Assembly (NCBI RefSeq): GCF_002836595.1 | Contig: NZ_PJBB01000003.1 | Coordinates: 682,001 to 746,000, forward strand | Source: Tenacibaculum sp. Bg11-29 | Lineage (GTDB): Bacteria; Bacteroidota; Bacteroidia; Flavobacteriales; Flavobacteriaceae | DNA: 64,000 bases | Direction of reading: 5' to 3' | Shown: positions 5,122-35,789 of the stretch, piece after piece | Position numbering within the stretch: position 1 is the first letter of the stretch | How the letters are laid out: every line of letters starts with the position of its first letter | Position numbers and translations under genes: made by a program | The notes under the pieces: model-generated | Told to the model about the DNA's origin: nothing | What the model saw: only the letters and a program-made list of their open reading frames with translations | Database searches by the model: none

Positions 5122-5159
5122 AGCTATGTTTTAATTAACCCAAAATACAAATTTTATCT

Positions 5160-5167
5160 TATTTTTG
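5160..5167 (+). promoter_or_regulatory. Bacteroidota -7 promoter box
   Basis: TATTTTTG matches TAnnTTTG and sits 28 bp before the ATG at 5196, in the divergent gap. Confidence 0.45.
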
Positions 5168-5195
5168 ATATGAATAACAATTTCATTTCTTAATT

Positions 5196-5981: not shown

Positions 5982-5985
5982 AGAT

Positions 5986-6056
5986 AACGTCATTACGATA
6001 AATATATGATGAAATAGTCTATACACAGATTGCTTCATTTTATTCGCAATGACGTT
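5986..6056. repeat. REP-like imperfect inverted repeat
   Basis: Arms AACGTCATTACGA (5986-5998) and TCGCAATGACGTT (6044-6056) are reverse complements with one mismatch. Between them GATGAAATAGTCT and AGATTGCTTCATT also pair partly, so the whole 71 bp can fold as one long hairpin. The GTCATTGCGA core resembles short palindromic intergenic repeats seen in many genomes. It lies between two converging genes. Only this copy was noticed in the window. Confidence 0.55.
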
Positions 6057-6069
6057 ACTTAATTATATT

Positions 6070-7050
6070 TTATGATGGAATCATCCATTTAAATTCGAAT
6101 TTAGTATCAGGAACTGTGATACGTTCTGTAATTCGATACATTCTATCTGGTAATTTCATTAAATAATCACGAGCTTTCTCGGCTTCTGGGCTTAAATTTG
6201 TAATTTTATCAATTTCCCAAGCAATATTTAGCTTTTTTATGATATCAACGTAATCAAAACCTGTGTATACACCAACTCTTTGAGCTACTGTAGAGAAATC
6301 ATCAAACAAACTACCTTTCGCTCCAAAAGACTCTCTTAAGTGCATTGCAGGCATTACTATTTTATGTTTCATCATATATTGAAAAGCTAACATCATTTCG
6401 CTAGGATCAATCTTAAATATTTGCTTAACAAATTCGGTATATGCTTGGTGATGACGCATTTCATCTCCTGCGATAATTCTAGACATTTTTGCTAATGCTT
6501 TGTGTCCTTTTTTCTTTGCAATTTTTGCAACATTTAAATGTGAAACATACGTTGCTAATTCTTGAAAACTCGTATACACAAAGTTTTTATACGGATCACT
6601 AGCTGTACCAATATCAAACCCATCAGTAATTAAATGTTGTGTTGTAATTTCTACTTCACGCATGTTTACTCTTCCTGAAAGATATAAATACTTATTTAAT
6701 ACATCTCCATGACGGTTTTCTTCTGCTGTCCAAGCACGTATCCATTTTGCCCAACCATTATCTGGATGTTGTGTAATTCCATCTAAATCTAACAACCACG
6801 ATTCATACGTTGGTAATGCTTCTTCAGTAATTGTATCCCCAACTAATACCACCCAAAAATCATCATCTAATTCTTTAGACAACTCTCTAATCTCTTCAAC
6901 TTCTGTAATAAAAGTATCTTTTTGTGAGTTTGGTAAAAAATCGGTTGGCTGCCAAATTTTCTCTGCTGGTATTAAAAACTTATCTACGAAACTATCGATA
7001 TTCTTTTCGAGAGTTTTCATAACTTCCTTTCGGATATTTTGTATTGACAT
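6070..7050 (-). CDS. Acyl-[acyl-carrier-protein] desaturase
   Basis: The 326-residue protein has the soluble stearoyl-ACP desaturase fold with both di-iron carboxylate motifs: EENRHG near residue 110 and DEMRHH near 195, each supplying Glu and His ligands. It would introduce a cis double bond into a saturated acyl-ACP using O2 and electrons from ferredoxin, so membranes can stay fluid. Two ferredoxins and a ferredoxin-NADP reductase are encoded elsewhere in the window. The plsC gene lies immediately upstream on the same strand (about 760 bp long, 33-bp gap), so acyl-chain modification and phospholipid synthesis are probably co-transcribed. Confidence 0.92.
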   Translation of the reverse strand: MSIQNIRKEVMKTLEKNIDSFVDKFLIPAEKIWQPTDFLPNSQKDTFITEVEEIRELSKELDDDFWVVLVGDTITEEALPTYESWLLDLDGITQHPDNGWAKWIRAWTAEENRHGDVLNKYLYLSGRVNMREVEITTQHLITDGFDIGTASDPYKNFVYTSFQELATYVSHLNVAKIAKKKGHKALAKMSRIIAGDEMRHHQAYTEFVKQIFKIDPSEMMLAFQYMMKHKIVMPAMHLRESFGAKGSLFDDFSTVAQRVGVYTGFDYVDIIKKLNIAWEIDKITNLSPEAEKARDYLMKLPDRMYRITERITVPDTKFEFKWMIPS

Positions 7051-7083
7051 AATATTTAGTATATTAATTATCTTTTGTTCTAA

Positions 7084-7812
7084 TTATAAAATTGATTCTT
7101 TAACTGTCTTTTCTACACTAGCTATCAACTCATTAAACGGTAAACTATCTACTTTTATTGGTGCGTGTGTTTTTATTTTTATTGGACTACCAAGGCCTAA
7201 TGGAAATTTACCATATTTAAACACTTTCCAAGAATTATTAATTGTTAACGGAACAACATATGCCTCTGGATTGTATTTAGCTATCATTTTTAAGCCATTT
7301 ACCGAAAATGATTTCGGTTTACCGGTTCTACTTCTTGTTCCTTCTGGAAAAATAGCTGCAGACCATTTATTCTTTTTTATTTTTTTAGAAAAACTTGCCA
7401 ATTCTGTTAATGCCTGCCTTGCATCTTTTCTATCTATTAAAGCAGCCCCACCATGCCTTAAATTAAAAGAAATACTTGGTATTCCTTTTGCTAGTTCTTT
7501 CTTAGATACAAACTTAGGGTGATGCTTTCTAAAATGCCAAATAATTGGTGAGATATCGAAAGTACTCTGATGATTTGACACAAATATTAACGTAGTGTCT
7601 TCAGGTAAATCTTGTTCATTTTCTACTTGAACACGAATCCCTAAAATTAATAATGATTTAATTAAAAACCAATTCATAATATTTACAACATTTTGATGCC
7701 CATTTTGACCAAATAATTTCAACCCCAACCATTGTAGAGGATGAAATATTATTAGCAGTAAAAAAAATACTAATGCAAATACTGATGATACTATATAACT
7801 TAAAAATTTCAT
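7084..7812 (-). CDS. plsC: 1-acyl-sn-glycerol-3-phosphate acyltransferase
   Basis: A strong N-terminal membrane helix (about 5-30) precedes a PlsC acyltransferase domain with the catalytic NHQSTFD (H-X4-D, near residue 80) and the glycerol-phosphate-binding FPEGTRSRTG (near 155). It acylates lysophosphatidate to phosphatidate at the inner membrane. I chose the ATG at 7812. The frame stays open to a TTG at 7836, but that extra stretch is polar and follows the upstream terminator too closely. It sits between a terminator and the desaturase gene, so the two form a short lipid operon. The gene symbol follows the family; ornithine-lipid or other lyso-lipid acyltransferases share these motifs. Confidence 0.88.
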   Translation of the reverse strand: MKFLSYIVSSVFALVFFLLLIIFHPLQWLGLKLFGQNGHQNVVNIMNWFLIKSLLILGIRVQVENEQDLPEDTTLIFVSNHQSTFDISPIIWHFRKHHPKFVSKKELAKGIPSISFNLRHGGAALIDRKDARQALTELASFSKKIKKNKWSAAIFPEGTRSRTGKPKSFSVNGLKMIAKYNPEAYVVPLTINNSWKVFKYGKFPLGLGSPIKIKTHAPIKVDSLPFNELIASVEKTVKESIL

Positions 7813-7840
7813 TATTATATTTTTAATAGTAAGCAAAAAT

Positions 7841-7861
7841 AAAAAATCCCGCGAAAGCGGG
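7841..7861 (-). terminator. Rho-independent terminator
   Basis: On the minus strand a CCCGC / GCGGG stem with a TTTC loop is followed by a run of T, directly after the stop of the small membrane-protein gene at 7876. Confidence 0.75.
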
Positions 7862-7875
7862 ACTATATTTTTAAA

Positions 7876-8283
7876 TTAAAACCAATTACTCCAAGGAATT
7901 CTTGATAATATTAGCACTAATGCTAGTCCATAAAAAATTGCAAAGGTTTTAAACTTCGTTTCACTTTTTACTTGTTTTTTATGCTTAGACCATCCAATTG
8001 TTATTAAAACGATTGCTATTATCATCATTAAAGGGTGTTCTAAAGCAAGTAATCTAACTCCTGAATCTTTCATATCACCTAATCCACTTTGAAATCCTCC
8101 AACGAAATAAACTAAGAAACCTATTAATAATTGAATGTGAGTTGTTATTAACGTAAATAAGCCTAAACGAAATTCTTTATGAGTGAATTCTTTTTTCTGT
8201 AGTAAACCAATAATTGCATTTACAACAGTAAAAATTAATACTACTAAAACTATATATGCCCAATAAGAGTGTAATGTTTTCAT
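7876..8283 (-). CDS. Four-helix membrane protein, cytochrome-b-like, function unknown
   Basis: The protein has about 135 residues with four predicted membrane helices (about 5-27, 42-64, 77-99 and 111-130). Histidines recur near helix ends (HSYWAY at residue 4, TTHIQLL in helix 2 and LEHPLMM in helix 3), the spacing one might expect of haem ligands, but this is not proven. Similar small proteins in Bacteroidota have been called cytochrome B or even mislabelled as L27. The start chosen is the ATG at 8283. The frame runs on to a GTG at 8346, but that GTG lies inside the upstream terminator hairpin. It has its own terminators on both sides, so it is probably monocistronic. Confidence 0.65.
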   Translation of the reverse strand: MKTLHSYWAYIVLVVLIFTVVNAIIGLLQKKEFTHKEFRLGLFTLITTHIQLLIGFLVYFVGGFQSGLGDMKDSGVRLLALEHPLMMIIAIVLITIGWSKHKKQVKSETKFKTFAIFYGLALVLILSRIPWSNWF

Positions 8284-8335
8284 TATTATTTGTCTGTTAG
8301 TTTTGTTTGTTACAAACTTACTAAATTTTATGCAT

Positions 8336-8364
8336 AAAAAAACCACCTCGTTTGAGGTGGTTTT
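8336..8364 (-). terminator. Bidirectional Rho-independent terminator
   Basis: Perfect stem AAACCACCTC / GAGGTGGTTT (8340-8349 and 8354-8363) with a GTTT loop and T-run on the minus strand, placed 24 bp after the stop of the large TonB receptor gene. Confidence 0.85.
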
Positions 8365-8387
8365 GAAATACTACTCTTATAAATTTA

Positions 8388-11300
8388 TTAGTTAAATTTA
8401 TATCTAATACCTATTTGCATTTGCCATCTAGAAGAATTTGACCCGCTATCATCAGACCTATTTAAAGACCCTTCTGCTGATGGGTCATAAGAGTATTCTG
8501 GTGTAGTACCATCAGACTCAAACCCTTCAAATTTAACCAATTGTACAGCATTAAAACTTCCCGAATAATATCTCTTACCCCAATTTTTGTTTAATAAATT
8601 AGTAAAGTTAAAAATATCAGCAGTTAATTCTATAGCATGAGAATTCTTCTTTCCTTTTAATTTAAATTCATGAGCAAATTTTAAATCTACCACATGGCTC
8701 CATTTAGACCTATCGCCATTTCTTTCCGTAAACTTACCTCTTCTACTTCTTAAATAATCATTACTTTCAATAAAACTATTTAAAGCTGTCCATTGTTGAG
8801 CAGCTGTAAAAGATCCTTCGTCAACTAAATTAATTTGACTAGCATTGGCTGGTACAAAAACTAGAGAATTAGAATCCCCTGAATCACCCGCTAAAGCTCC
8901 TCTATCGTTATAAACATAACTAAACACATTACCTTGACCTGCATCATAAAACAATCCTAAAGTTGTTTTATTTGAAGCATTCCATTTTAAATCAATAGAA
9001 GCATTAGACAACACTCTATGTCCTTGTGCAAAATCAGACCTAGACAAACCTAAATTATTTGCTCCGTTAATATTTTCAACTCTAGACCATTGAGAACTAT
9101 TTTGAGAAGATGTTGGATCATTAACTACATCTGAATCACCGTAAGAATAAGATGCTTGTGCTCTTATGTCTAGAAAATTTGAATAATAATTTTTACTTAA
9201 TGTTGTTGCAAAATTCCAAGAACTACCTTCACCTGTATTTGAAGCTAAATATATTCCTTGATAATTATTATCAACTCTCTTATATTCATAATTTGGTCTA
9301 CTTCCTGCTTCAGTGGTAGAAAACTGTGGACCTTCTAAATTAAGATTTTCATATTTTATTGCTTTAATATTATCATTCCAAATAAAATCTGCAGAAATAT
9401 TAAAGTTGGCTGGTAATTTTTGATCAATCGCTAAGTTCACTTTAAAAACTTGAGGTAACATAAAATTAGCTGCAAATAAATCAACTGAACCAGCAATTGC
9501 TCCAGAACCTGCTACTGGGTCTTGAAATTGACTATTAACATCTGGGTTAAATACTGGCGTATTACCTGCTCCTCTTATATCAATATTACCAGAAGTTACC
9601 CCGTTATTATTATATGCTCCTCCTGGCCAAACTAAAGGAACTCTAGATGTGAATATACCGAATCCACCTCTAATCTTAGTACTTCTATCTCCTTTAACAT
9701 CCCATGCAAAACCTACTCTAGGTGAAATATGCATTTTAGAGTCTATCCCCTTACCTACTCTAGCTCCTTTTAAATCTTTTCCTGCCGCTTTTAATAAGCC
9801 AATAGTTCTTGTATTAAAATCTGGATTATTTCTTCCATTTTCCCAAAAAGGAACATCAAAACGCAAACCTGCAGTTACTTTAAACTTGTCAGAAACCGTT
9901 ACCTCATCTTGAAAGTAAATACCAAACTGATATGCATTAAATTTAGCAGATCCTTCTGACGTATCACCATTCCCTCCAATTAAAGAGTAACCTAAACGAT
10001 ATCTAATGGCATTTTGTTTTGTTAAGAAATCATTTACATTAGCAAACTCATAGTAACCAAAATTTCTTCCAAAGAAAACATTATTCATTGATGAAAACTC
10101 ATTGTGAGTACCAATTGTTACTTTATGAGCTCCTGCAAAAATATCAAAATTATCTGTAAGAGTTAACACTTCAGATTCTAATAAGTTAGCTGTAGAAAAG
10201 GCCTCAGAACCAAAAGAAACACGTCCTCTACCATCTCTAATTCTTACATTAGGAAAAGGGTTACCGTTAAAACCTCTATCATCTTTAACCTTTGTATATC
10301 CAACAACTAAATTATTAGAATATTTACTTCCGAACGTAGAATTTAATTCCAGTGTAGAAGTATTTGTTGTAGATTCAAATACTTGATTTCCGTTAGAAAA
10401 ATTAATACTTCTTGTAGATGATGAATTCGCTCTATTACTCACACCTTTTACATAAGAGTGCTTTAATGACAACTTATGATTATCATTAATATTCCAATCT
10501 AACTTAGCAATTAATTTATCACTTTTTAAAGATGAAATAGCATTTTCATATCCTCCTACATTATAACCATATTCATTTGCTATGAATTGTGATAAGTTAC
10601 TTAAAGCTGTAGCGTCTGAATCACCAGTGTAATTATCAACAAAAAAAGTTCTTGGAGTTTCGTTATCTTGTTTTTCATAATTAACAAAATAAAATAATTT
10701 ATCTTCTTTTATTGCTCCACCTATCCTAGCTCCATAAGTTAAAGCTGTAAATTCTGGTAATTTTATTCTTTCATTACTACCAGCAACATCCACAGGTGTT
10801 TTTCCTGCTAATTTTTCATTTCTAAAAAAAGAATAAGCTGATGCTTGTGTTTTATTCGTTCCTGATTTTGTAATTGCATTAATTGAACCTCCTGCAAAAC
10901 CTGATTGTTTTACATCAAAAGGAGCTATATTAATTTGAAATTGATCGATAGCATCTAATGAAATTGGGCTTACACCCGTTTGACCTCCATTAGTTCCTGA
11001 GCTAGATAGACCAAAAACATCGTTACTTACAGCACCATCTAAATAAATAGCGTTATACCTATTATTTTGACCTGCTATTGAAATTTGATTATCTCCGCTA
11101 ATTTGAGCTTGAGGTGTTAACCTTGCAAAATCAGCTATAGATCTAGAAAGTGTTGGCAATGAAGCTATTTGTTTTCTAGATACTTTTGTTTCAGAACCGT
11201 CTTTAGTATTAGACGAAGTACTAATTATAACCTCTTCTAAAACATTAGCATTTTCTTGTAACTTAACGCTTACTGTTTCAGTAACACCTAAGTTTAAATA

Positions 11301-11585
11301 CAATCCTTCTTTTACAGAATTTGCATATCCTACAAACGAAATTGTAACTTTATAAGGCCCACCAATTCTCATGTTAGATATCCTATAAAGACCATCAAAG
11401 TTTGTTGATGCACCATATTTTGTACCTGAAGGTACGTGAACTACTAATACATTAGCTCCTGGTAAAGGCTCATTAAGATTATCTGTAATCTTACCTCGCA
11501 TTGACGAAGTTGTAACCCCTTGTCCTAAAACTGTAGCCGTTACAAAGAACAATGCTGCCAGTAAAACATTTTTAAAATTTCTCAT
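8388..11585 (-). CDS. Oar-like TonB-dependent receptor
   Basis: This 1065-residue outer-membrane protein has a signal peptide (to about residue 21, ending LGQ). A carboxypeptidase-like regulatory domain follows (about 26-115; MRGKITDNLNEPLPGANVLV), then a plug (ISIAGQNNRYNAIYLDGAV) and a long beta-barrel ending in aromatic-rich strands (WQMQIGIRYKFN). The plug and the FDVKQSGFAGGSINAITKSG segment resemble the Oar family of Myxococcus and Bacteroidota rather than siderophore receptors. Oar-like barrels lack a known ligand; some secrete or import proteins or peptides. No SusD partner follows, which argues against a glycan utilisation locus. It is bounded by its own terminator, so it is probably monocistronic. 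Confidence 0.88.
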   Translation of the reverse strand: MRNFKNVLLAALFFVTATVLGQGVTTSSMRGKITDNLNEPLPGANVLVVHVPSGTKYGASTNFDGLYRISNMRIGGPYKVTISFVGYANSVKEGLYLNLGVTETVSVKLQENANVLEEVIISTSSNTKDGSETKVSRKQIASLPTLSRSIADFARLTPQAQISGDNQISIAGQNNRYNAIYLDGAVSNDVFGLSSSGTNGGQTGVSPISLDAIDQFQINIAPFDVKQSGFAGGSINAITKSGTNKTQASAYSFFRNEKLAGKTPVDVAGSNERIKLPEFTALTYGARIGGAIKEDKLFYFVNYEKQDNETPRTFFVDNYTGDSDATALSNLSQFIANEYGYNVGGYENAISSLKSDKLIAKLDWNINDNHKLSLKHSYVKGVSNRANSSSTRSINFSNGNQVFESTTNTSTLELNSTFGSKYSNNLVVGYTKVKDDRGFNGNPFPNVRIRDGRGRVSFGSEAFSTANLLESEVLTLTDNFDIFAGAHKVTIGTHNEFSSMNNVFFGRNFGYYEFANVNDFLTKQNAIRYRLGYSLIGGNGDTSEGSAKFNAYQFGIYFQDEVTVSDKFKVTAGLRFDVPFWENGRNNPDFNTRTIGLLKAAGKDLKGARVGKGIDSKMHISPRVGFAWDVKGDRSTKIRGGFGIFTSRVPLVWPGGAYNNNGVTSGNIDIRGAGNTPVFNPDVNSQFQDPVAGSGAIAGSVDLFAANFMLPQVFKVNLAIDQKLPANFNISADFIWNDNIKAIKYENLNLEGPQFSTTEAGSRPNYEYKRVDNNYQGIYLASNTGEGSSWNFATTLSKNYYSNFLDIRAQASYSYGDSDVVNDPTSSQNSSQWSRVENINGANNLGLSRSDFAQGHRVLSNASIDLKWNASNKTTLGLFYDAGQGNVFSYVYNDRGALAGDSGDSNSLVFVPANASQINLVDEGSFTAAQQWTALNSFIESNDYLRSRRGKFTERNGDRSKWSHVVDLKFAHEFKLKGKKNSHAIELTADIFNFTNLLNKNWGKRYYSGSFNAVQLVKFEGFESDGTTPEYSYDPSAEGSLNRSDDSGSNSSRWQMQIGIRYKFN

Positions 11586-11722
11586 TATTAAATCTATTTG
11601 TTATTAAATGCAGTAGCAAAGGTCTTACTTTTCTATGCTGCTAATATTAAGTTAATGTTAAGGTTTTTAACACCTATTTAACAAACAAACCCTTCATAAC
11701 GGGAGTAAAAAAAACAAAAAGA

Positions 11723-13291
11723 CTAGTTATTTAACATTTTCCTTGCGATTTCCTTACCTAACTCAACACCAAACTGGTCAAAGGAAAATATATTCCATAT
11801 AACTCCTTGTGTAAAAATTTTATGTTCGTAAGTAGATATTAACATTCCAAAAGTTTTTGGAGTCAATTTATTAAATAGAAATGAAGTACTAGGACGGTTT
11901 CCTTTAAATATTTTGTACGGTAATAATTGATTTATTTCGTCTAATCTGTTTTCAAGCTTTAACTCTAAATGAATTTCTTCTTTTGTTTTACCACAAGCTA
12001 AAGCTTCCATTTGAGCATAATAATTAGCCATTAATTTTTTATGATGTTCTGTTAAACCATGTAATGATTCTTTAAACCCAATAAAATCTGTTGGAATTAA
12101 TTTTGTTCCTTGATGTATTAACTGCATAAAAGCATGCTGCATATTTGCGCCAGTCGCTCCCCAAATAATCCCTCCTGTTTGGTAATCTACTTCGTTTCCA
12201 TTTCTATCAACTCCTTTACCATTACTTTCCATAACTGATTGCTGTAAATAGGCAGGTATTTTTGCTAGGTATTCACTATACGGTAAAACGGCTTCTGTTT
12301 CACTTTTAAAAAAGTTATTATACCAAATACTTAGTAATCCTTGTATTACTGGTATATTTTTATCAAAAGGGGTCTCTCGAAAATGATTATCCATTTTTTC
12401 AGCTCCATTTAATAACTGCTTAAAATTATCATAACCTATAGATAAACAAATAGACAGCCCTACAGATGACCATAAAGAAAATCTACCACCAACCCAATTC
12501 CACATTGGAAAGATATTTTTTTTATCTATTCCAAAACTTGTCGCTTCTTCCATATTAGAAGACACAGCGACAAAATGTTTAGCAACATCAAAAATTGTTG
12601 CTGAATTTAAGAACCAATCTCTAATAGTATTAGCATTCGTTAATGTTTCGTCTGTAGTGAATGACTTAGAAACAATTACAAATAATGTAGTTTCTGGATT
12701 TAGCTTATTTAATATTTCTACTACATGATCTCCATCTATATTAGAGACAAAGTGTGATTTTAACTTATTTCTATAAAACTGTAAAGATTCAACAACCATA
12801 CTTGGTCCTAGATCAGACCCTCCTACTCCTATATTAACAACATCTGTAATTACCTTACCTGTAAACCCTTTCCATTTCCCTGAAATAACCTTATTACTAA
12901 AGCTTTTCATCTTCCTTAAAGCTGTTTGCACTTGAGGCTTCACATCTTTACCTTCAATTAAAACAGGAGTTTCCGAATTACTTCTCAAAGCCGTATGTAA
13001 AACAGCTCTGTCTTCTGTTTCATTAATTTTATCTCCTGAAAAATACTTATCAATAGCATCTTTTAACTCCGTTTGATTAGCCAAAGAAATCAATAAATCA
13101 ATTGTTTCTTGTGTAATAAGGTTTTTTGAAAAATCAACACTTAGTTCATCTATCTTAATAGAGAATTGTTCTTTTCTGTTTTTATCTTTACGGAAAAGAT
13201 CTTTTAAATTATATTCTTTTGCTTTACTAAAATGATCAGTTAATTCTTCCCAGGCCTTCGTTTGGGTTGGATTAATGTTTTGTAACGGCAT
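11723..13291 (-). CDS. pgi: Glucose-6-phosphate isomerase
   Basis: The 522-residue protein matches full-length Pgi. Clear landmarks are the sugar-phosphate-binding VNIGVGGSDLGPSM (about 151-164), the PGI signature region with the catalytic Glu in QQSVMESNGKG (about 345-355), the catalytic His in GANMQHAFMQLIHQGT (about 378) and the active-site Lys near the C-terminus (FDQFGVELGKEIA). It interconverts glucose-6-phosphate and fructose-6-phosphate in the cytosol. The M23 peptidase gene lies 20 bp upstream on the same strand, so the two are likely co-transcribed. Confidence 0.97.
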   Translation of the reverse strand: MPLQNINPTQTKAWEELTDHFSKAKEYNLKDLFRKDKNRKEQFSIKIDELSVDFSKNLITQETIDLLISLANQTELKDAIDKYFSGDKINETEDRAVLHTALRSNSETPVLIEGKDVKPQVQTALRKMKSFSNKVISGKWKGFTGKVITDVVNIGVGGSDLGPSMVVESLQFYRNKLKSHFVSNIDGDHVVEILNKLNPETTLFVIVSKSFTTDETLTNANTIRDWFLNSATIFDVAKHFVAVSSNMEEATSFGIDKKNIFPMWNWVGGRFSLWSSVGLSICLSIGYDNFKQLLNGAEKMDNHFRETPFDKNIPVIQGLLSIWYNNFFKSETEAVLPYSEYLAKIPAYLQQSVMESNGKGVDRNGNEVDYQTGGIIWGATGANMQHAFMQLIHQGTKLIPTDFIGFKESLHGLTEHHKKLMANYYAQMEALACGKTKEEIHLELKLENRLDEINQLLPYKIFKGNRPSTSFLFNKLTPKTFGMLISTYEHKIFTQGVIWNIFSFDQFGVELGKEIARKMLNN

Positions 13292-13311
13292 AGTTAATGT
13301 ATTGCTAATAT

Positions 13312-14577
13312 TTATTTTTTATTTAAAGGAGCAGAAACAGTATCCTTTATAGCTAATTTTATACTGTCTAATCGTACTTTTAATGGTTTTATAAATTTAA
13401 AATACGCTGGTTTAACCAAAGAATCTAACGGTTCTGCTGATGGCAGTTTTTCTCTAAAAGGATCTACTTGTTTCCCATATTTCCAAAAACGATAACACAC
13501 ATGTGGTCCGCTTGTATTTCCTGTCATACCTACCCAACCTATAATATCTCCTTGTTTTACATAATCTCCTACTCTAACATTTCTTCGTTTCATATGTAAA
13601 TACTGAGTAGTGTATGTACCATTATGCATTACTTTTACATAATTTCCATTACCTCCTTTTCTTGCAGCTTCGACAACTGTACCACTAGCTGTCGTCATTA
13701 TTGGAGTTCCATACTTTGCAGCAAAATCTGTTCCTCTATGAGGTCGAACTCTTCCATATAATGCAATTTTCCTTCTTAAATTATAACGTGATGATATACG
13801 GTATTGAAATTTAATTGGCGATTTTAAAAATGCCCTTCTCAGCATATCTCCTTTTTCATTATAAAATTCTGGAATATTCTTAATAGAATCACCTACAAAT
13901 TTATAAGCATATAAGTCTTCTCCTTTATGATTAAAAACCGCCGCTTTCACTTCTCCATAGCCAACAAAAACAGTATCATTAATAAATTTCTCTTCATAAA
14001 TTAATTTAAATTTATCTCCTTTTTGTAATCGATAAAAATCAAGTGTCCATGCATAAATATCAGCTACAGTATTTGTTAATGAAGCACTAAGATTTAAACT
14101 ATCCATTGTAACTGATAAGTTTGAAAAAATTTGTCCTGTAATTTCTTTTTCTATTATTTTAATTTTTTTCTTAAACTTATATGATAATATAACAGAATCT
14201 TTGAAATTAATTATTGTCGCATTTACCTTGTTATGTTTATAAATAAAAACTTGAGGTTTTTCAAGAGAATCTCTTGATGTTAAAATAGTAAATGCCTTTC
14301 CCGATCTAATTCGTCTTACATCAAAAGTATCTTTAATTACTGTTGCTATTTTATTTATTTTTGGATATCCCACATGGTATCTATCTAAAATAACGCCAAA
14401 ACTTTCACCATTTTTAATAGTATCATTTATTACGTTATAATTATCTAGATTAAATCCAAAAGCATAAATAGGCTTTGGTTTTTCTATCTTTACAGGAGTC
14501 TTTATTTCTTCTTTTTTTTCTTTTTTACATGATAAAAAAGCACAAAAAATAAAAAGTAAGAGAATATATTTTTTCAA
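13312..14577 (-). CDS. M23 family peptidoglycan DD-metallopeptidase, lipoprotein
   Basis: The 421-residue protein starts with a lipoprotein signal (FCAFLSCKKEKK, modified Cys17). A middle region has LysM-like or OapA-like character (about 55-110). The C-terminal LytM domain has the zinc motif HRGTDFAAKYGTPI (about 279), the H-x-H-type motif YLHMKR (about 331) and SGPHVCYRFWK (about 357). It should cleave peptide cross-links of peptidoglycan in the periplasm. Co-orientation with pgi (20-bp gap) looks like a conserved Flavobacteriia neighbourhood rather than a pathway. A TACTTTTG box upstream fits its own promoter. Confidence 0.9.
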   Translation of the reverse strand: MKKYILLLFIFCAFLSCKKEKKEEIKTPVKIEKPKPIYAFGFNLDNYNVINDTIKNGESFGVILDRYHVGYPKINKIATVIKDTFDVRRIRSGKAFTILTSRDSLEKPQVFIYKHNKVNATIINFKDSVILSYKFKKKIKIIEKEITGQIFSNLSVTMDSLNLSASLTNTVADIYAWTLDFYRLQKGDKFKLIYEEKFINDTVFVGYGEVKAAVFNHKGEDLYAYKFVGDSIKNIPEFYNEKGDMLRRAFLKSPIKFQYRISSRYNLRRKIALYGRVRPHRGTDFAAKYGTPIMTTASGTVVEAARKGGNGNYVKVMHNGTYTTQYLHMKRRNVRVGDYVKQGDIIGWVGMTGNTSGPHVCYRFWKYGKQVDPFREKLPSAEPLDSLVKPAYFKFIKPLKVRLDSIKLAIKDTVSAPLNKK

Positions 14578-23207: not shown

Positions 23208-25613
23208 ATGAAAAAAGTAATAATAGCTATTTTATTGTCCTTGATAGCGGCAAATTCAATAGCTCAAAAAAAATCCATTAATGGTGTTGTAACTGACAAC
23301 AACAACAATCCATTAATTGGTGTTAATGTACTTATTAAAGGCACAGATAACGGTACACAAACAGATATTAATGGTCAATTCACTATTCAGAATGGCACTA
23401 AAAACCAACAAACATTAATTATTTCTTACATTGGATTTAAGACAAAAAACATCAATATAAATCCTAATGAAAAAAACCTTTCCATTACACTTTATGAGGG
23501 AAATGAGTTATTAAATGAAATAATAGTTGATACGAACAGAAAGAACAAATTTTCGAGAAAAAAATCTGCTTATGTAGCAAAATTACCTTTAAAGAATATT
23601 GAAAATGCTCAGGTATATAGTACAGTTACAAATCAATTATTAATATCACAATCTGTAGTTAGTTTTGAAGAGGCTTTAAAAAATACAACAGGTGTCGAAC
23701 AGTTATGGTCATCAACAGGAAGAAGTGGTGATGGTGCTGGTTATTATTCAATTCGTGGATTCTCTATTCAACCTCAATTAGTAAATGGAGTTCCTGGAAT
23801 TACAAACGGTTTTGTTAATCCTGATAATGTAGAAAGAATTGAAGTTATTAAAGGCCCTTCAGCAACTTTATTTGGTAGTACAGTAACTTCTTATGGTGGT
23901 TTAATTAATATTGTTACTAAAAAACCTTACAAAGGTACTGGTGGAAACATTACTGTTGCTGGTGGTTCTTTTGGTTTTAAAAAATTAACTGTAGATGTTA
24001 ACACCAATCTTGAAGATAATGAAGATATATCTTTACGTTTTAATGCAGGATATCAAACACAAGATAGCTTTCAAGATGCTGGTTTTAGAAAATCTTTATT
24101 CTTAGCTCCATCTATTTCTTATAAAATAAACAACAGGTTAACATTAAACTTTAATTACGAGTTATCATCTACTGATCAAACAAATCAACCTTTCTTGTTT
24201 TTAAATAGAGCTCCATTAACTTTTAATAATTTAGATGAATTAAATTATGACACAAGTAAATCGTTAACAAATAACGATATTTCAATTAAAAATCCTACTC
24301 AAAATTATAGAGGTGAAATTGCTTATAAAATTTCTGATAATTGGTCATCTCAAACAATAATTGCTGGAGGTAATACAAAATCAAAAGGTCATTATACTTA
24401 TTTATACAATCTTCAAGATAATTTATTTGGTTTATTTGCTCAAAAAACAGATGCAGAAACCAATACTTTAGATATACAACAGAACTTCACAGGAGATTTT
24501 AAATTAGGTACTATGAGAAACAGAATTGTTGTTGGTGTAGATTATTTAAAATTACAAATCCAAGACAATGGTTCTGGCTTTAGCAGAATTAACGTTACAA
24601 ATCCACAAGGTCAACTTATACCTGTACCTGCAAATTTTGGTTTTGCAAATTTACCTACCAATCGTGCAAATTTAGAAACAGTTTTAGCAAATTCACCAAG
24701 AACAAATTCTGATCTTAATCAAAATATTTTTAGCGGATATGTTTCTGATGTAATAAATATTTTACCTGAATTATCTGTTATGGCTGGTGTTCGTTATGAT
24801 AGATTTCAATATAAAGGTGATGCAAACGACGTTTCTGATGATGATAAAGCATATACAAAATCAACATTATCGCCTAAATTTGGGGTTGTTTATCAACCAA
24901 TATTAAATCAATTGTCAGTTTTTGCAAATTATCAAAACGGATTTTCTTATGTAAATCCAGAGAGAGTACCAGTTGACATTGCAAACCCAACAGGGCAAAC
25001 GAAGATACAATCATACGATTTGGAACAAGCAAACCAAATAGAATTTGGTGTAAAAACAAATTTATTTAATAATAAACTTGAAGCTTCTTTAAGTTACTAC
25101 GATATTACTGTAAAAGATAAAGTAATGGGGTTTGGTGCTAGTAAAATACAAGACGGAACTGTAAAAAGTAAAGGTTTTGAGTTGGAAATTAATGCAAATC
25201 CAATTAATGGATTAAACTTAAGAGGTGGTTTTAGTTACAATGATTCAAAAGTAACAAAAACTGTATCTAGACCTGATTTAATAGGTGTTCGTTTGGCTGA
25301 AGCAGGACCAGAAACATCTTATAACTTTTGGGCAGATTATAAATTTCAAGATGGAATTGCTAAAAACTTCGGTTTAGGTTTTGGTGTTAACGGTGCTAGT
25401 GATTATAACACTATGGTTGGTTACCCATCAGCTGGTGACTTTATCTTACCAGCATACTCAATTTTTAATGCTTCAGTTTATTATGAAGTTGATAAATTTA
25501 GAATTAGTGTAAAAGGAAACAATTTAACAGATAAAGAATATTATAAAGGATGGAGTACTGTAAACATACAAGCTCCGAGAGCATTCTTAGGAACGCTTAC
25601 TTATAAGTTCTAA
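23208..25613 (+). CDS. TonB-dependent siderophore receptor
   Basis: The 801-residue protein has a signal peptide (to about residue 19, NSIAQ), a carboxypeptidase-like domain (INGVVTDNNNNPLIGVNVLI), a plug with TTGVEQLWSSTGRSGDG, YYSIRGFSIQPQLVNGVPGI and VERIEVIKGPSATLFG, and a barrel ending RAFLGTLTYKF. The plug signature IRGF...VNG and the KGPSATLFG motif are those of FhuA/FpvA-type siderophore receptors. It opens an operon with two small membrane proteins, a PepSY protein, a methyltransferase and flavodoxin, which fits ferric-siderophore import followed by reductive release. A strong promoter precedes it, and a hairpin follows before the next gene. Confidence 0.92.
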   Translation: MKKVIIAILLSLIAANSIAQKKSINGVVTDNNNNPLIGVNVLIKGTDNGTQTDINGQFTIQNGTKNQQTLIISYIGFKTKNININPNEKNLSITLYEGNELLNEIIVDTNRKNKFSRKKSAYVAKLPLKNIENAQVYSTVTNQLLISQSVVSFEEALKNTTGVEQLWSSTGRSGDGAGYYSIRGFSIQPQLVNGVPGITNGFVNPDNVERIEVIKGPSATLFGSTVTSYGGLINIVTKKPYKGTGGNITVAGGSFGFKKLTVDVNTNLEDNEDISLRFNAGYQTQDSFQDAGFRKSLFLAPSISYKINNRLTLNFNYELSSTDQTNQPFLFLNRAPLTFNNLDELNYDTSKSLTNNDISIKNPTQNYRGEIAYKISDNWSSQTIIAGGNTKSKGHYTYLYNLQDNLFGLFAQKTDAETNTLDIQQNFTGDFKLGTMRNRIVVGVDYLKLQIQDNGSGFSRINVTNPQGQLIPVPANFGFANLPTNRANLETVLANSPRTNSDLNQNIFSGYVSDVINILPELSVMAGVRYDRFQYKGDANDVSDDDKAYTKSTLSPKFGVVYQPILNQLSVFANYQNGFSYVNPERVPVDIANPTGQTKIQSYDLEQANQIEFGVKTNLFNNKLEASLSYYDITVKDKVMGFGASKIQDGTVKSKGFELEINANPINGLNLRGGFSYNDSKVTKTVSRPDLIGVRLAEAGPETSYNFWADYKFQDGIAKNFGLGFGVNGASDYNTMVGYPSAGDFILPAYSIFNASVYYEVDKFRISVKGNNLTDKEYYKGWSTVNIQAPRAFLGTLTYKF

Positions 25614-29085: not shown

Positions 29086-29640
29086 ATGAACAATAAAATA
29101 GGTTTGATTTACGGTTCAGATACCGGCATGACAGAAGAGGTTACTCATACTATTGTTGATGAGTGGAATACAAGTGAAGTTGAAGTTATTGAAGTTACAA
29201 ATGTAGATTCTTCAGATTTTCAAAGGTTTGATTTTTTAATTTTAGGGTTATCAACTTGGTATGATGGTGATTTACAAAGTGATTGGGAAAGTTATTTTGA
29301 TGAATTTAAAACTATAGATTTCACAAACAAAACAGTGGCTATTTTTGGTTTAGGCGATCAATATGGTTATGGTGAATATTTTATAGATGGTGTAGGTATG
29401 CTTGCTGAAGTAGTATTAGAAAATGGTGGAAAAATTGTAGGAAAATGGCCTACTAGTGGTTATGATTATACAGAATCTAAAGCTGAAATAATAGATCAAA
29501 AGCTATTTTATGGTTTAGCCATTGATGAAGACAATGAACCTGAGTTAACTACTGATCGTCTTAAGAACTGGTTAGCCATTTTACAAGAAGAATATAAAAA
29601 CATTTCATTTGAATTAGTTGAATTAGCTCTCGAGAGCTAA
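29086..29640 (+). CDS. fldA: Flavodoxin with an unusual C-terminal tail
   Basis: The 184-residue protein is a long-chain flavodoxin. The FMN phosphate loop is YGSDTGMTEEV (about 8-18), the first isoalloxazine loop LGLSTWYDGDLQSDW (about 55-69), the second FGLGDQYGYGEYF (about 87-99), and the long-chain insertion covers about 118-140. It carries one or two electrons on FMN and can replace ferredoxin when iron is short, which fits its place at the end of a siderophore operon. The last 14 residues (from KNISFEL) extend past the normal end at the EEY helix. They run into a perfect palindrome whose other half encodes the end of a ferredoxin remnant, so the tail may have been acquired. Confidence 0.93.
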   Translation: MNNKIGLIYGSDTGMTEEVTHTIVDEWNTSEVEVIEVTNVDSSDFQRFDFLILGLSTWYDGDLQSDWESYFDEFKTIDFTNKTVAIFGLGDQYGYGEYFIDGVGMLAEVVLENGGKIVGKWPTSGYDYTESKAEIIDQKLFYGLAIDEDNEPELTTDRLKNWLAILQEEYKNISFELVELALES

Positions 29641-29645
29641 TTCAA
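29618..29645. repeat. Perfect 28-bp palindrome at the fldA / ferredoxin-remnant junction
   Basis: TTGAATTAGCTCTC (29618-29631) is followed directly by its exact reverse complement (29632-29645), with an XhoI-like CTCGAG centre. It holds the stop codons of both convergent frames, which both end in the residues ELALES. No T-run follows on either strand, so a canonical terminator is doubtful. Confidence 0.9.
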
Positions 29646-29851
29646 TTTCTAAGCCATCCATTTCTGGTAACTCATGATCAGATTTCACGTAATATTGACA
29701 AGAAGTACACATTACAATTCCGTTATAAATACCAATAGTTCCTTCTGGCGCTAATTCGTAGCAACGAACAACCTCCATTAGGTTCATAGTTCTATCGGGA
29801 AGCAACAACCTCATGTGTTACGTCTTCTCGGCCTGTTATTTTAATGGTTAT
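29623..29851 (-). pseudogene. Decayed [2Fe-2S] ferredoxin, duplicate of the intact gene at 30872-31210
   Basis: Read on the minus strand, this gives MNLMEVVRCYELAPEGTIGI and MCTSCQYYVKSDHELPEM, nearly identical to the intact ferredoxin. A block of 30 codons is missing between two PEM repeats, which removes the fourth cluster cysteine. The first cluster cysteine is changed to Tyr (GIYNG for GICGG). The N-terminal part is also damaged: the first 20 codons align only with frame changes, and the original ATG is gone. A cluster could not be held by the two remaining ligands. The deletion between short identical repeats points to slippage or microhomology recombination. Confidence 0.85.
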
Positions 29852-29853
29852 AG

Positions 29854-29896
29854 TCTATCTTCTTAACAATAGTTCTCGGAGCTTCTTTTCTGGTTA
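29854..29896 (-). pseudogene. Remnant of the last codons of a ferredoxin-NADP reductase gene
   Basis: About 43 bp match, with few differences, the 3' end of the intact reductase gene (31588-31628 region, encoding KEAPKAVVKKIE). The piece follows the ferredoxin remnant directly, on the same strand and in the same relative order as the intact genes, but without the membrane-protein gene that separates them in the intact copy. Nothing of the rest of the reductase remains. Confidence 0.7.
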
Positions 29897-29906
29897 TACA
29901 TCATGA

Positions 29907-30050
29907 TGGCCTACTAGTGATTATCATTATACAGCTTCAAAAGCTAAAATAGAGTATAAAAAATTCTTTTATGGCTTAGATTTAGATGGAGATTACCAGC
30001 CGTAATTAAACTCAGGGTCAATGAATTGGTTTAAATGAATTAAGAAAGAA
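29907..30050 (+). pseudogene. Remnant of a second flavodoxin, C-terminal third
   Basis: The plus strand encodes WPTSDYHYTASKAKIEYKKF, then FYGLDLDGDYQP and a stop. This aligns without gaps to WPTSGYDYTESKAEIIDQKL and the following FYGLAIDEDNEP of the intact flavodoxin. After the stop the match continues in frame (NWFK for NWLA), with a second stop and one codon lost. The 5' two thirds are missing. Protein similarity is clear, while the DNA has diverged more than in the ferredoxin remnant, so this copy is probably an old paralogue. Confidence 0.75.
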
Positions 30051-30056
30051 CTATTA

Positions 30057-30860
30057 TTATCTTTTATTTCTTAAAAAAATAAAATGATACATTAGACCTA
30101 CTAAAACACTACCTCCAATAATATTACCAAGTAAAACTGGAATTATATTAGAAACCATTCCTGATAAACTTAAAGCATTTGTACTAACTTCAACCGTTGA
30201 AAATTCTTGAAGCATTAACCCAAGTGGTATTATAAATAAATTTGCTATACTATGTTCAAAACCTGCTGCAACAAAAAGTGTAATTGGAAAAACAATTACT
30301 AAAACTTTATCTGTTAGTGTTTTTCCTCCCATAGCCATCCAAACCCCTAAACAAACCAAAATATTACATAAAAGCCCTTTAAAAAAAGCAGTAAAGAAAG
30401 GTAATGCACATTTAGCATCAGCCATTTTTATATACATTTTAGCTATTTCTCCATTATTCATATCTAAATGTCCAGAAAAATAAACCATAACTGCTAAACT
30501 AACAGCGCCTAGCATATTACTAATAAAAACAATACCCCAGTTTCTAATCATTTGTTTATAGGAAACTTTTCCTTCTGCCCAAGCAATAGCAATTAGATTA
30601 TTACCAGTAAAAAGTTCAGCTCCTGCTACAACAACCAGTATAAGTCCAAGTGAAAACACAAAACCACCAAAAATTTGTTTTGTAGCAAAACTATAAGTAG
30701 GGTCTGATTTTACGATTGTATAAAACAAAGCTCCTAAACCAATAAACGCGCCTGCCAAAACACCTAATAAGAAACTAGTTAAAAACGATTTTTTAACTTT
30801 TTTTACACTTGAATTTAGTGCTTCTTTTACTATTTCTTCAGGAGCATAAGCTACAGACAT
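30057..30860 (-). CDS. Formate/nitrite transporter family protein
   Basis: The 267-residue protein has six predicted membrane helices of the FNT (FocA/NirC) fold. Family landmarks are the half-helix loops LVVVAGAELFTGNNLIAIAW (about 78-97), GLLCNILVCLGVWMA (about 162-176) and FEHSIANLFIIPLG (about 201-214), with the central His in the last segment that protonates substrates in FNT channels. It should pass formate, nitrite or hydrosulfide across the inner membrane; the substrate cannot be told. It lies 11 bp after the ferredoxin gene on the same strand. A link through ferredoxin-dependent nitrite reduction is possible, but no such enzyme is in the window. Confidence 0.9.
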   Translation of the reverse strand: MSVAYAPEEIVKEALNSSVKKVKKSFLTSFLLGVLAGAFIGLGALFYTIVKSDPTYSFATKQIFGGFVFSLGLILVVVAGAELFTGNNLIAIAWAEGKVSYKQMIRNWGIVFISNMLGAVSLAVMVYFSGHLDMNNGEIAKMYIKMADAKCALPFFTAFFKGLLCNILVCLGVWMAMGGKTLTDKVLVIVFPITLFVAAGFEHSIANLFIIPLGLMLQEFSTVEVSTNALSLSGMVSNIIPVLLGNIIGGSVLVGLMYHFIFLRNKR

Positions 30861-30871
30861 AATTTATTTTT

Positions 30872-31210
30872 TTAACTTTCAGGAGCTAATTCAACTTCTA
30901 AACCATCCATTTCTGGTTTTATTTGTAACTGACAGCCCAATCGACTATTCTCTTGTACATCAAATGCCTCTGCTAGCATAGCGTCTTCATCATCAGTCAT
31001 TTCGGGTAACTCATGGTCAGATTTCACGTAACATTGGCAAGAAGCACACATTGCCATTCCTCCACAAATACCAATAGTTCCTTCTGGTGCTAATTCGTAC
31101 GAACGAACAACTTCCATTAAGTTCATAGCCATATCTGTAGGTGCAATAACTTCATGCGTTACGCCTTCTCTATCTGTTATTTTTATAGTTATATCTTGAT
31201 TATCCATCAT
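30872..31210 (-). CDS. [2Fe-2S] ferredoxin, adrenodoxin type
   Basis: The 112-residue protein has ligands arranged C-X5-C-X2-C in GICGGMAMCASCQCYV (about 52-67) and a fourth in RLGCQLQI (about 97), as in adrenodoxin- and ISC-type ferredoxins. It carries one electron in the cytosol. Its start overlaps the stop of the upstream membrane-protein gene (TAATG), and the reductase gene begins the same operon, so NADPH to reductase to ferredoxin is a natural chain. Users could include the acyl-ACP desaturase, Fe-S assembly or sterol/cytochrome enzymes. A broken duplicate lies 1.2 kb away. Confidence 0.93.
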   Translation of the reverse strand: MMDNQDITIKITDREGVTHEVIAPTDMAMNLMEVVRSYELAPEGTIGICGGMAMCASCQCYVKSDHELPEMTDDEDAMLAEAFDVQENSRLGCQLQIKPEMDGLEVELAPES

Positions 31211-31557
31211 TATAGGTATATCGATTGCATTCCAAAAAACTCAAATAAAGGAGTAGTAGCTACTAGTAAAACTAAAATATAAACAATGGTTTTTACCCAA
31301 ACTGAAGTAGTCTTCCCTACAGGTATATATTCTGCTTGAACCTTATACTCTTGTAAAAGAATATCTTTTGATTGGTAAATAGAATTATCCTTATGTAAAT
31401 TTTTTATGCTTCTCTTAGGAATTATTTTCCAAAAAAAAGATAAAGAGTAAAGCATTAAAATAGAAACTATGACGAAAGTTAAAAATTCTGAATCATTTAA
31501 GCCTCTTTCTGTTATAGGTAATCCTCCAAGACAATTGAATTGCAATAAACGTATCAT
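31210..31557 (-). CDS. Unknown two-helix membrane protein inside the ferredoxin/reductase operon
   Basis: I do not recognise this 115-residue protein. It has a short N-terminus, a membrane helix (about 26-46, FVIVSILMLYSLSFFWKII), a polar cytoplasmic or periplasmic stretch of about 40 residues and a second helix (about 88-106, IVYILVLLVATTPLFEFFG). There is one cysteine (residue 9) and no known motif. Its stop overlaps the ferredoxin start and its own start lies 27 bp after the reductase stop, so it is translated as part of the reductase-ferredoxin unit. Membrane tethering of that electron chain is one possible role, offered as inference only. Confidence 0.7.
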   Translation of the reverse strand: MIRLLQFNCLGGLPITERGLNDSEFLTFVIVSILMLYSLSFFWKIIPKRSIKNLHKDNSIYQSKDILLQEYKVQAEYIPVGKTTSVWVKTIVYILVLLVATTPLFEFFGMQSIYL

Positions 31558-31584
31558 AGTTTTATTTTATATCTAAAAAAATAA

Positions 31585-32640
31585 TTACTCAATCTTCTTA
31601 ACAACAGCTTTCGGAGCTTCTTTTCTAGTTCCGTCAAAACCATCTACACCTCCAACAGTTGTGTATTTCATTACGTATTTTTTATCCGGATAAATTCGTT
31701 GAAATGCACTTTGACACATTAATGTAGCTTCGTGAAATCCGCATAAAATTAACTTTAACTTCCCTGGATATGTATTTACATCTCCGATAGCATAAATCCC
31801 TGGAATATTCGTTTGATAATCTAAAGCATTATTTACTTTAATAGCATTTTTTTCAATCTCTAATCCCCAATTACCTATAGGACCTAATTTTGGTGATAAA
31901 CCAAAAAGAGGAATAAGATGATCGCATTTTAAAGTGAATATTTCTTTATCTTTTTGTGCTATTAAAACACCTTCAACTTTAGTGTCTCCAACAATTCCTT
32001 TAACCTCAGCTGGTGTAATTAAATTAATTTTCCCTGCGTCTTTTAATTCTTGAACTTTATCCACAGAATCTAATGCACCTCTAAATTCATTTCTACGATG
32101 CACTAAAGTTACAGACTTTGCAATATCCGTTAAGAAAATAGACCAATCTAAAGCAGAATCTCCACCTCCAGCAATTACTACGTCTTTATCTCTGTATAAC
32201 TCTGGTTCTTTTATCATGTACTCAACCCCCTTATCTTCATAATTTGCAATACTAGGAATTGGTGGTTTACGTGGCTCAAAACTACCTAAACCTCCTGCTA
32301 TTGCAACAATAGGCGCTTGGTGTTTTGTTCCTTTATTGGTAGTTACAATAAAACTACCGTTTTCTTGTTTTTCAATTGTTTCAGCTCGTTCACCTAAGGT
32401 AAATCCTGGTTCAAATTGTTTAATTTGTTCCATTAATTTATCAGTTAAATCTCCTGCTAATATTTCAGGATAAGCTGGTATGTCGTAAATAGGTTTTTTA
32501 GGATATATTTCTGAACATTGCCCTCCTTGTTGTGGCAAAGCATCAATTAAATGGCAACGTAACTTTAATAATCCAGCTTCAAATACAGTAAACAAACCTG
32601 TTGGACCTGCTCCTATAATTAATATATCAGTTTGTATCAT
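31585..32640 (-). CDS. Ferredoxin-NADP reductase, thioredoxin-reductase type
   Basis: The 351-residue flavoprotein has an N-terminal FAD-binding GAGPTGLFTVFEAGL (about 8-22), a central NADPH-binding IAGGGDSALDW (about 154-164) and the FAD-contacting GIYAIGDVNTYPGKLKLILC (about 285-304). It lacks the CxxC redox motif of thioredoxin reductase, as expected of the TrxR-like FNR group of Bacteroidota, Chlorobi and Firmicutes. It moves electrons between NADPH and ferredoxin or flavodoxin, both encoded within 3.5 kb. An unusual hairpin lies in its short leader. Confidence 0.93.
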   Translation of the reverse strand: MIQTDILIIGAGPTGLFTVFEAGLLKLRCHLIDALPQQGGQCSEIYPKKPIYDIPAYPEILAGDLTDKLMEQIKQFEPGFTLGERAETIEKQENGSFIVTTNKGTKHQAPIVAIAGGLGSFEPRKPPIPSIANYEDKGVEYMIKEPELYRDKDVVIAGGGDSALDWSIFLTDIAKSVTLVHRRNEFRGALDSVDKVQELKDAGKINLITPAEVKGIVGDTKVEGVLIAQKDKEIFTLKCDHLIPLFGLSPKLGPIGNWGLEIEKNAIKVNNALDYQTNIPGIYAIGDVNTYPGKLKLILCGFHEATLMCQSAFQRIYPDKKYVMKYTTVGGVDGFDGTRKEAPKAVVKKIE

Positions 32641-34624: not shown

Positions 34625-35096
34625 CGACTAAAAATATAATTTTATAACCAAATAAACTGAGAATACTCCTTAATTATTCCAATCAATAAATTAAATTCCA
34701 TGTCTATCTTTTGGATTAAAAGAACATAGCTACTCAAAAACACAAAAAAGTATACATAAACCTCAAAATTGTATAATTATACACTATAGAAGATAACTGT
34801 GCAACTGTAAAAAATGGAATTAGAAACATGTTTGTAGATGATAAAGAAAGCCCTAATATATTTTATTTATTTCTCTCTATTAGTTAAATATTGGAAATCA
34901 CTCTACAACTTCAGAAAGTTTTACTGGTAAAAAAAATGAAATAAAGCTCTCAAACAAGCTCTAACAATAAATTGTTAAGTAATTTTTAGTTATTTTATAG
35001 ATACAATCTATATATAAAGATAAAAGAAATGAACTGAACAAAATCATAAGTAATTAAAAAAAGCTACTCTAGAGTAGCTTTTTTTAATTAAGTAGG
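34625..35096. other. Gene-free AT-rich region with a possible coding relic
   Basis: 472 bp without a gene. Around 34790-34882 one plus-strand frame reads DNCATVKNGIRNMFVDDKES before a stop, which looks more protein-like than its surroundings, but it has no start and no recognised family. A strong terminator closes the region at 35052-35089. Confidence 0.4.
35052..35089 (-). terminator. Bidirectional Rho-independent terminator
   Basis: Near-perfect palindrome centred at 35070/35071: AAAAAAAGCTACTCT / AGAGTAGCTTTTTTT, directly after the stop of the M57 protease gene. It works on either strand. Confidence 0.85.
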
Positions 35097-35789
35097 TTAT
35101 CTAGGATCTATAATATCCCTATTAGGAAAACGAGATCTAATTAAATCAATATCCGACCTGGTCATACCAGCCCATTTTTCTTCATCAGTTGTAAAACGAG
35201 CAGGCATAAAGCTTAAGTGATTACCATGTGAGTATCCGAAATTATGGCCAAGCTCATGAACAGTGACATATGTTCTAAGTTTTGCTGTAAGTACAGGAGC
35301 AGCACTTGAATTTTGCACTGCGTCTGGGACATAATTTGAGTTTATATCAATTTTAACACCAAAATTACCATTTGCATCAGGAAAATCAGCTCCGGCAGGA
35401 GATTTTTCATACCTAGCAGGTTCTGCTTTATAATTATAATTAACAGTTGCATTTCTCCTAGATAAAGTTTGTGACATATTTATCGATCCTGTTGCGTTTG
35501 TCCAAATTGAACTAGCCTCTCTAATCGCTTTAACCCATTCTTGAGGCATCTTCGGATCAATAAAATATTTAATATCCATTGTGTTAGCCGGCGTTGCAAA
35601 ACCAACAAAGCGGGGTCCTCGCATATGTAAATCTGAATTACCAAAACAATTTATTTTGGCTCCAGATTGCTCAATTTGTGACTCTACATCTTTAATTTGA
35701 ATTTCATCTTCACTACAAGATGCTAAGAATAAAGTCATACAAGACAATACTGCGATTGTTTTTTTACTAAATTTTAAACTAATTTTCAT
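35097..35789 (-). CDS. HExxH zinc metalloprotease lipoprotein, M57-like
   Basis: The 230-residue protein has a lipoprotein signal (MTLFLASCSEDE, Cys25). Its zinc motif VHELGHNFGYSHG (about 175-187) is an extended HExxHxxGxxH site, typical of metzincins and of the dual-action HEIGH (M57) group in Bacteroidota. Upstream, MDIKYFIDPKMPQEW and the SIWTNATGSINM segment resemble the N-terminal half of matrixin-like domains. It should be a surface or periplasmic endopeptidase; the substrate is unknown. The gene is isolated in the most gene-poor part of the window, preceded by a leader with CCCCCG just before the ATG. Confidence 0.82.
   Translation of the reverse strand: MKISLKFSKKTIAVLSCMTLFLASCSEDEIQIKDVESQIEQSGAKINCFGNSDLHMRGPRFVGFATPANTMDIKYFIDPKMPQEWVKAIREASSIWTNATGSINMSQTLSRRNATVNYNYKAEPARYEKSPAGADFPDANGNFGVKIDINSNYVPDAVQNSSAAPVLTAKLRTYVTVHELGHNFGYSHGNHLSFMPARFTTDEEKWAGMTRSDIDLIRSRFPNRDIIDPR

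Follow-up and report, generated by a model that had tools for sequence, protein, structure and literature searches.

Between working electron-carrier genes, the marine bacterium Tenacibaculum sp. Bg11-29 carries a scar of about 440 bases (29623-30056), made up, in this order, of the remnants of a ferredoxin, of the tail of a reductase and of that of a flavodoxin. Positions refer to the window, i.e. the whole stretch of 64,000 nucleotides analysed, which belongs to a genome of 4.54 Mb (G000); the genus set consists of 166 Tenacibaculum genomes, one per species. The explanation favoured here, with modest confidence, is a scar of two layers, in which a local duplication of the ferredoxin and the reductase tail would have been combined with a swap of the flavodoxin, before the split from Tenacibaculum ovolyticum; at the same modest level, I prefer it to the joining of a foreign cassette into the resident flavodoxin.

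The scar and its neighbours

Repeat search, whole-genome match and direct comparison agree on the three pieces, which stand where the original prediction had put them and in the same order (Table 1).

Table 1. Features of the locus in window coordinates
Feature	Position	Strand	Remarks
TonB-receptor-like gene	23208-25613		judged from the look of the sequence
fld1, intact long-chain flavodoxin	29086-29640	+	Pfam Flavodoxin_1; NCBIfam TIGR01752 above cut-off
Perfect palindrome, 28 nt	29618-29645	.	fld1 and the ferredoxin remnant both have their stop codons in it
Ferredoxin remnant	29623-29851	-	90 nt missing between PEM repeats; frame shifted by loss of 2 nt; no first cluster cysteine
Reductase tail remnant	29852-29896	-	last 14 codons of ferredoxin-NADP reductase
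Joint of reductase tail and flavodoxin tail	29897-29907	.	fld codon ~121
Flavodoxin C-terminal remnant	29907-30056	+	two stops; directly adjoins the transporter gene
Formate/nitrite transporter family gene	30057-30860	-	PF01226
fdx2, intact [2Fe-2S] ferredoxin, adrenodoxin/putidaredoxin-like	30872-31210	-	PDB sequence matches
Small membrane-like protein, 115 aa	31210-31557	-	no Pfam or NCBIfam match
fnr2, reductase of thioredoxin-reductase-like type	31585-32640	-	PF07992; TIGR01292 below cut-off

The ferredoxin remnant is 84% identical to the intact gene fdx2 over 226 aligned columns, its larger part matching that gene at E 3.4e-52 in the whole-genome search, and the 30-codon loss predicted between PEM repeats is seen as a 90-nt gap between two runs of PEM codons, with GAAATG at each end. 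For the window, and only there, this loss is claimed as a deletion between short direct repeats. The remnant has also lost 2 nt near 29800, which shifts the frame, and carries a Tyr in place of the first cluster cysteine. The predicted end of the reductase matches the local fnr at 88% over 42 nt (E 9.3e-8 in the whole-genome search) and the fnr of genome G003 at 79% over 42 nt, the local gene being the closest; the predicted flavodoxin C-terminus aligns with the neighbouring flavodoxin at 71% over 128 nt. At the joint between these two pieces there is an AAAA run common to fnr and fld, compatible with end joining, albeit a weak sign in such AT-rich DNA. Nor is the ferredoxin remnant equally similar to its paralogue elsewhere in the genome, an outcome which the prediction had to face: the ferredoxin of a second fdx-fnr pair matches it at 74%, the local one at 83%.

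The frames of the scar are disabled by stops and a frameshift and its ferredoxin piece is nearly gone in the sister genome, as befits a pseudogene; the scar, lacking a working frame, probably has no function, its sole possible role being that of a shared 3' end for the flavodoxin and transporter transcripts. Like other bacterial pseudogenes born of duplication, it holds non-functional local copies, disabled by stops, by a frameshift and by a loss between short direct repeats; unlike a plain one, it has, among its three pieces, one that does not resemble a copy of its present neighbour. It is, in short, a scar of the ordinary decaying kind with an informative mosaic history.

Among the intact genes, fld1 scores 186.1 bits against TIGR01752 (cut-off 146.75) and is thus a long-chain flavodoxin, its last 18 nt (29623-29640) overlapping the tail of the ferredoxin remnant on the opposite strand, inside the palindrome; the genome has two other flavodoxin-domain genes. 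The match of fdx2 to TIGR02007 is weak and below the cut-off, and the gene has no Pfam match. The product of fnr2 is presumably a ferredoxin-NADP reductase, a name taken from the original prediction and from general knowledge of the type. With its TonB-receptor-like gene, PepSY protein and flavodoxin, the locus would appear to be an iron-starvation unit.

Conflicting gene trees on the two sides of the scar

In the rpoB tree of 29 chosen genomes, the window's genome and T. ovolyticum DSM 18103 (G085) stand beside T. finnmarkense (G070; gv. ulcerans, G018), T. dicentrarchi (G067), T. piscium (G008) and G087 (support 99), followed by T. soleae (G095; 98). The mrp tree agrees (94), and so, for the most part, does the fnr tree, which places the pair with the same species (97), plus a genome of the genus set named Polaribacter (G154) that is far away by rpoB. 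On the other side, the pepsy gene of the pair joins that of G003 (support 100), a genome distant in the rpoB tree, and so does fld, with 91 in one tree and 85/89 in another. This conflict indicates that the cassette to the left has a history different from that of the right side, the scar lying at the change.

A resident gene whose tree conflicts with those of its concordant flanks is the pattern of xenologous gene displacement in situ, a known concept, and it is found here with a flavodoxin support of only 91 or 85/89. The likeness lies in a flavodoxin of foreign affinity standing in front of the stump of another; the difference is that here the other gene is still partly visible, behind a local duplication joint.

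The tract on the right (30872-32640) is not undisturbed either. Between the window's genome and T. ovolyticum, dS amounts to 0.61 for fdx, 0.57 for the gene of the 115-aa protein and 0.40 for fnr, as against 0.22 for rpoB, and the small membrane-like protein is very different in the two (dN 0.32). The raised dS is a sign of later recombination in one lineage, which would have blurred this tract.

A probable local origin of the ferredoxin and reductase pieces

The ferredoxin remnant falls in a clade with the intact ferredoxins of the window's genome and of T. ovolyticum (99/97), any other placement being 7.3 lnL worse (AU p 0.01-0.17 among the placements listed); when an origin on the side of G003 was simulated, this margin was reached in 0/80 and 0/80 cases. 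When each was placed alone, the trees lacked resolution: the remnant then tended towards T. finnmarkense and T. piscium, the intact ferredoxin towards G045/G155 or G003. The reductase piece, at 42 nt, is too short for a tree. For both pieces the local gene is the nearest of all those sampled, as expected of a local duplication, which supports their being copies of the local genes.

These data also bear on the idea of a foreign cassette, ending in flavodoxin, ferredoxin and reductase tail, that would have been fused straight to the resident flavodoxin, with no tandem duplication, and of a later gene conversion that made the two ferredoxins alike. The G003-like fld and pepsy speak for it, as do the absence of the transporter from the first unit, the flavodoxin stump that adjoins the transporter as in the T. 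finnmarkense group, and the raised dS of the tract from fdx to fnr, which shows recombination there. Yet the conversion would have to cover the reductase tail as well, and derived sites are common to the ferredoxin remnant and the local ferredoxin, so that this course of events is considered possible, if doubtful.

A probably different affinity of the flavodoxin piece

With the full alignment, the flavodoxin remnant is placed 8.2-8.4 lnL better off the local flavodoxin branches. As much of this margin came from columns beyond the gene end, where the alignment is arbitrary, the alignment was trimmed, leaving margins of 4.2, 4.7, 4.7 and 4.5 lnL; masking of the first 24 nt gave 5.7 lnL. In no simulation did a copy of the adjacent flavodoxin reach the margin (0/60 and 0/60; 0/120; 0/60 in each of three variants), the branch lengths of the neutral simulation being set by hand: the identity of the simulated copies was 74% in one neutral run, as compared with 66% for the real remnant, and a matching 65% in another. 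AU tests of the local flavodoxin branches are borderline (p 0.007-0.18), and which branch fits best depends on the alignment: G083, G095, the T. finnmarkense group plus G103, or a deep branch that takes in G049 and others.

The first 24 nt of the remnant resemble the local flavodoxin; further on it reads KAKI, a motif present in 4/26 flavodoxins (T. soleae, T. aiptasiae (G061), G157 and G149). The remnant, about 150 nt long, could therefore itself be a mosaic that begins local-like. From their respective remnants, the flavodoxin diverges by 34% and the ferredoxin by 16%, which speaks against a single shared date, with the proviso that flavodoxin also evolves faster. Since the remnant does not group with the adjacent flavodoxin, and since fld and pepsy go with G003, a swap of the flavodoxin is probable, and the tail that adjoins the transporter would be that of another, perhaps earlier one. 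A flavodoxin next to the transporter also occurs in G018, G067, G068 and G070.

The locus in related genomes

T. ovolyticum is the closest relative both at the locus (94% at fld, 166 genomes) and at rpoB (96%, 29 genomes compared). At the same place it has a palindrome at the end of the flavodoxin, then the reductase tail, whose likeness may by eye extend about 9 nt further, and the flavodoxin tail, with almost no ferredoxin. The same scar, more deleted, implies an age greater than the split of the two genomes (dS about 0.22 at rpoB), and the near absence of the ferredoxin piece implies that it is dispensable. That the pieces are separate, unrelated insertions is highly improbable on this ground: their differing histories (flavodoxin versus ferredoxin) would suit such an origin, but the reductase and flavodoxin pieces keep the same order in T. 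ovolyticum and the order of the scar mirrors that of the live locus.

At E 1e-40, flavodoxin is found in 32/166 genomes of the genus, once in 31 of them and twice, on different contigs, in G092; two adjacent flavodoxins are found in none of the 166 at this cut-off, which would miss remnants. Besides the window's genome, 31 have this flavodoxin; in the neighbourhoods of 25 of them no second fld-fdx-fnr unit was seen, the prediction having asked whether some relatives still hold two full units. These counts, together with the trees, tell on the proposal that a complete fld-fdx-fnr unit was tandemly duplicated and then lost its first fdx-fnr and second fld. Its ferredoxin and reductase part stands, in that both pieces are local copies (the former in the 99/97 clade); order and strand fit as well, the first 24 nt of the flavodoxin remnant are local-like and some local branches survive the AU test. 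Its flavodoxin part fares worse, for simulated copies of the adjacent gene were never as foreign as the remnant, even if AU values are borderline, no adjacent pair was found among the 32 flavodoxin-bearing genomes at the cut-off used and complete second copies are unnecessary; duplication of the whole unit thus appears unlikely.

The ferredoxin faces the flavodoxin within about 1.4 kb in 21/25 relatives and is absent from the examined stretch in G113 (near a contig end), G105, G084 and G034; in five further loci fdx and fnr are present with no flavodoxin in 12-14 kb, and in G087 the region after fdx has no fnr. A gene that is hydroxylase-like by its sequence features lies between fdx and fnr wherever that interval was inspected (7/7 loci). 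In G003 (L038, flipped 6864-8516), two similar small membrane genes flank it, as compared with one small membrane gene and no hydroxylase in the window. Elsewhere in the window (34800-35789), similarity to T. ovolyticum in the global alignment falls to about 0.6, the level of unrelated sequence.

The transporter, detected in 7/166 genomes at E 1e-60, lies between fld and fdx in the window's genome, G085, G018, G070, G068 and G067, and beside a second ferredoxin in T. piscium (L039). The latter locus resembles the present one in having a pair of sister ferredoxins, of which one goes with the transporter while the other faces the flavodoxin; it differs in that both are intact and about 6.5 kb apart, with the transporter unit before the flavodoxin cassette. 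No flavodoxin remnant was found at convincing scores beside this detached transporter. Between the two intact ferredoxins (flipped 4571-13517) there is a TonB-receptor-like gene with a PepSY cassette.

A palindrome where flavodoxin and ferredoxin end

The palindrome matches itself at 100% over its 28 nt on the minus strand; its counterpart is 30 nt long in G002 and 44 nt long in T. ovolyticum, with 21-bp arms and a 2-nt loop. No terminator was called there by a scan which found two in all, neither at the palindrome, with 1.0 expected. Given the longer palindrome of T. ovolyticum, a direct-repeat deletion was dropped as the cause of its loss of the ferredoxin piece, and copying across the hairpin would be likelier.

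In the window and in G002, G003, G008, G049, G085, G087, G090 and G156, a palindrome lies at the ferredoxin tail, with arms of 8-14 bp (21 bp in G085). The stop codons of fld and fdx share TTAG in G008, G087, G049, G090 and G156, and G002 is like the window, the last 18 nt of its fld overlapping the ferredoxin tail on the opposite strand. In G003 a short vestige of a ferredoxin tail lies behind fld, although its own ferredoxin is 1.4 kb away.

Tentatively, and as a rather speculative suggestion drawing on the window, T. ovolyticum, G003 and T. piscium, the 3' end of the ferredoxin might serve again and again as the site where Tenacibaculum species exchange TonB-PepSY-flavodoxin cassettes. Since the tails of fld and fdx overlap within a palindrome, every swap or insertion would leave a dated scar in the form of a ferredoxin tail or copy.

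A proposed history in two layers

In the preferred history of local duplication and flavodoxin swap, the first layer, which is supported, would be a local duplication of the ferredoxin together with the reductase tail. The joint would lie within the reductase (last 14-17 codons) and within a flavodoxin (codon ~121), so that the extra reductase and the extra flavodoxin would have been born as stumps: a duplicated stretch starting inside fld and ending inside fnr would yield fld, fdx, fnr stump, fld stump, (transporter), fdx and fnr in one step. A single joint of this kind makes a complete second fnr or fld unnecessary, and with it the supposed destruction of a first fdx-fnr and a second fld as full copies. 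If the transporter was natively between fld and fdx, its traceless loss from the first copy would be required.

In the second layer, supported as to the gene and conjectural as to the order of events, the front flavodoxin with its PepSY and methyltransferase neighbours would have been exchanged for a G003-type version, and the stump beside the transporter would be what is left of a different flavodoxin, probably an earlier one. A flavodoxin of foreign lineage in front calls either for such a later swap or for the foreign cassette with ferredoxin conversion discussed above. The scar would then have decayed through a frameshift, stops and deletions.

Among the papers found on Tenacibaculum and flavodoxin none has a title that concerns this locus, and no paper was found that joins flavodoxin, ferredoxin, pseudogene and tandem duplication. 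As for an evolving switch between Fe-dependent and Fe-free electron carriers, of which the scar had been thought a mark, it gained no direct support, flavodoxin and ferredoxin being intact in both sister genomes.

To sum up, the arrangement of gene pieces can by itself look like the product of a clean tandem duplication even when, as here, the gene trees favour a mosaic. The scar is datable, and at its locus carriers with and without iron stand side by side, in a genus whose flavodoxin is patchily distributed (32/166).
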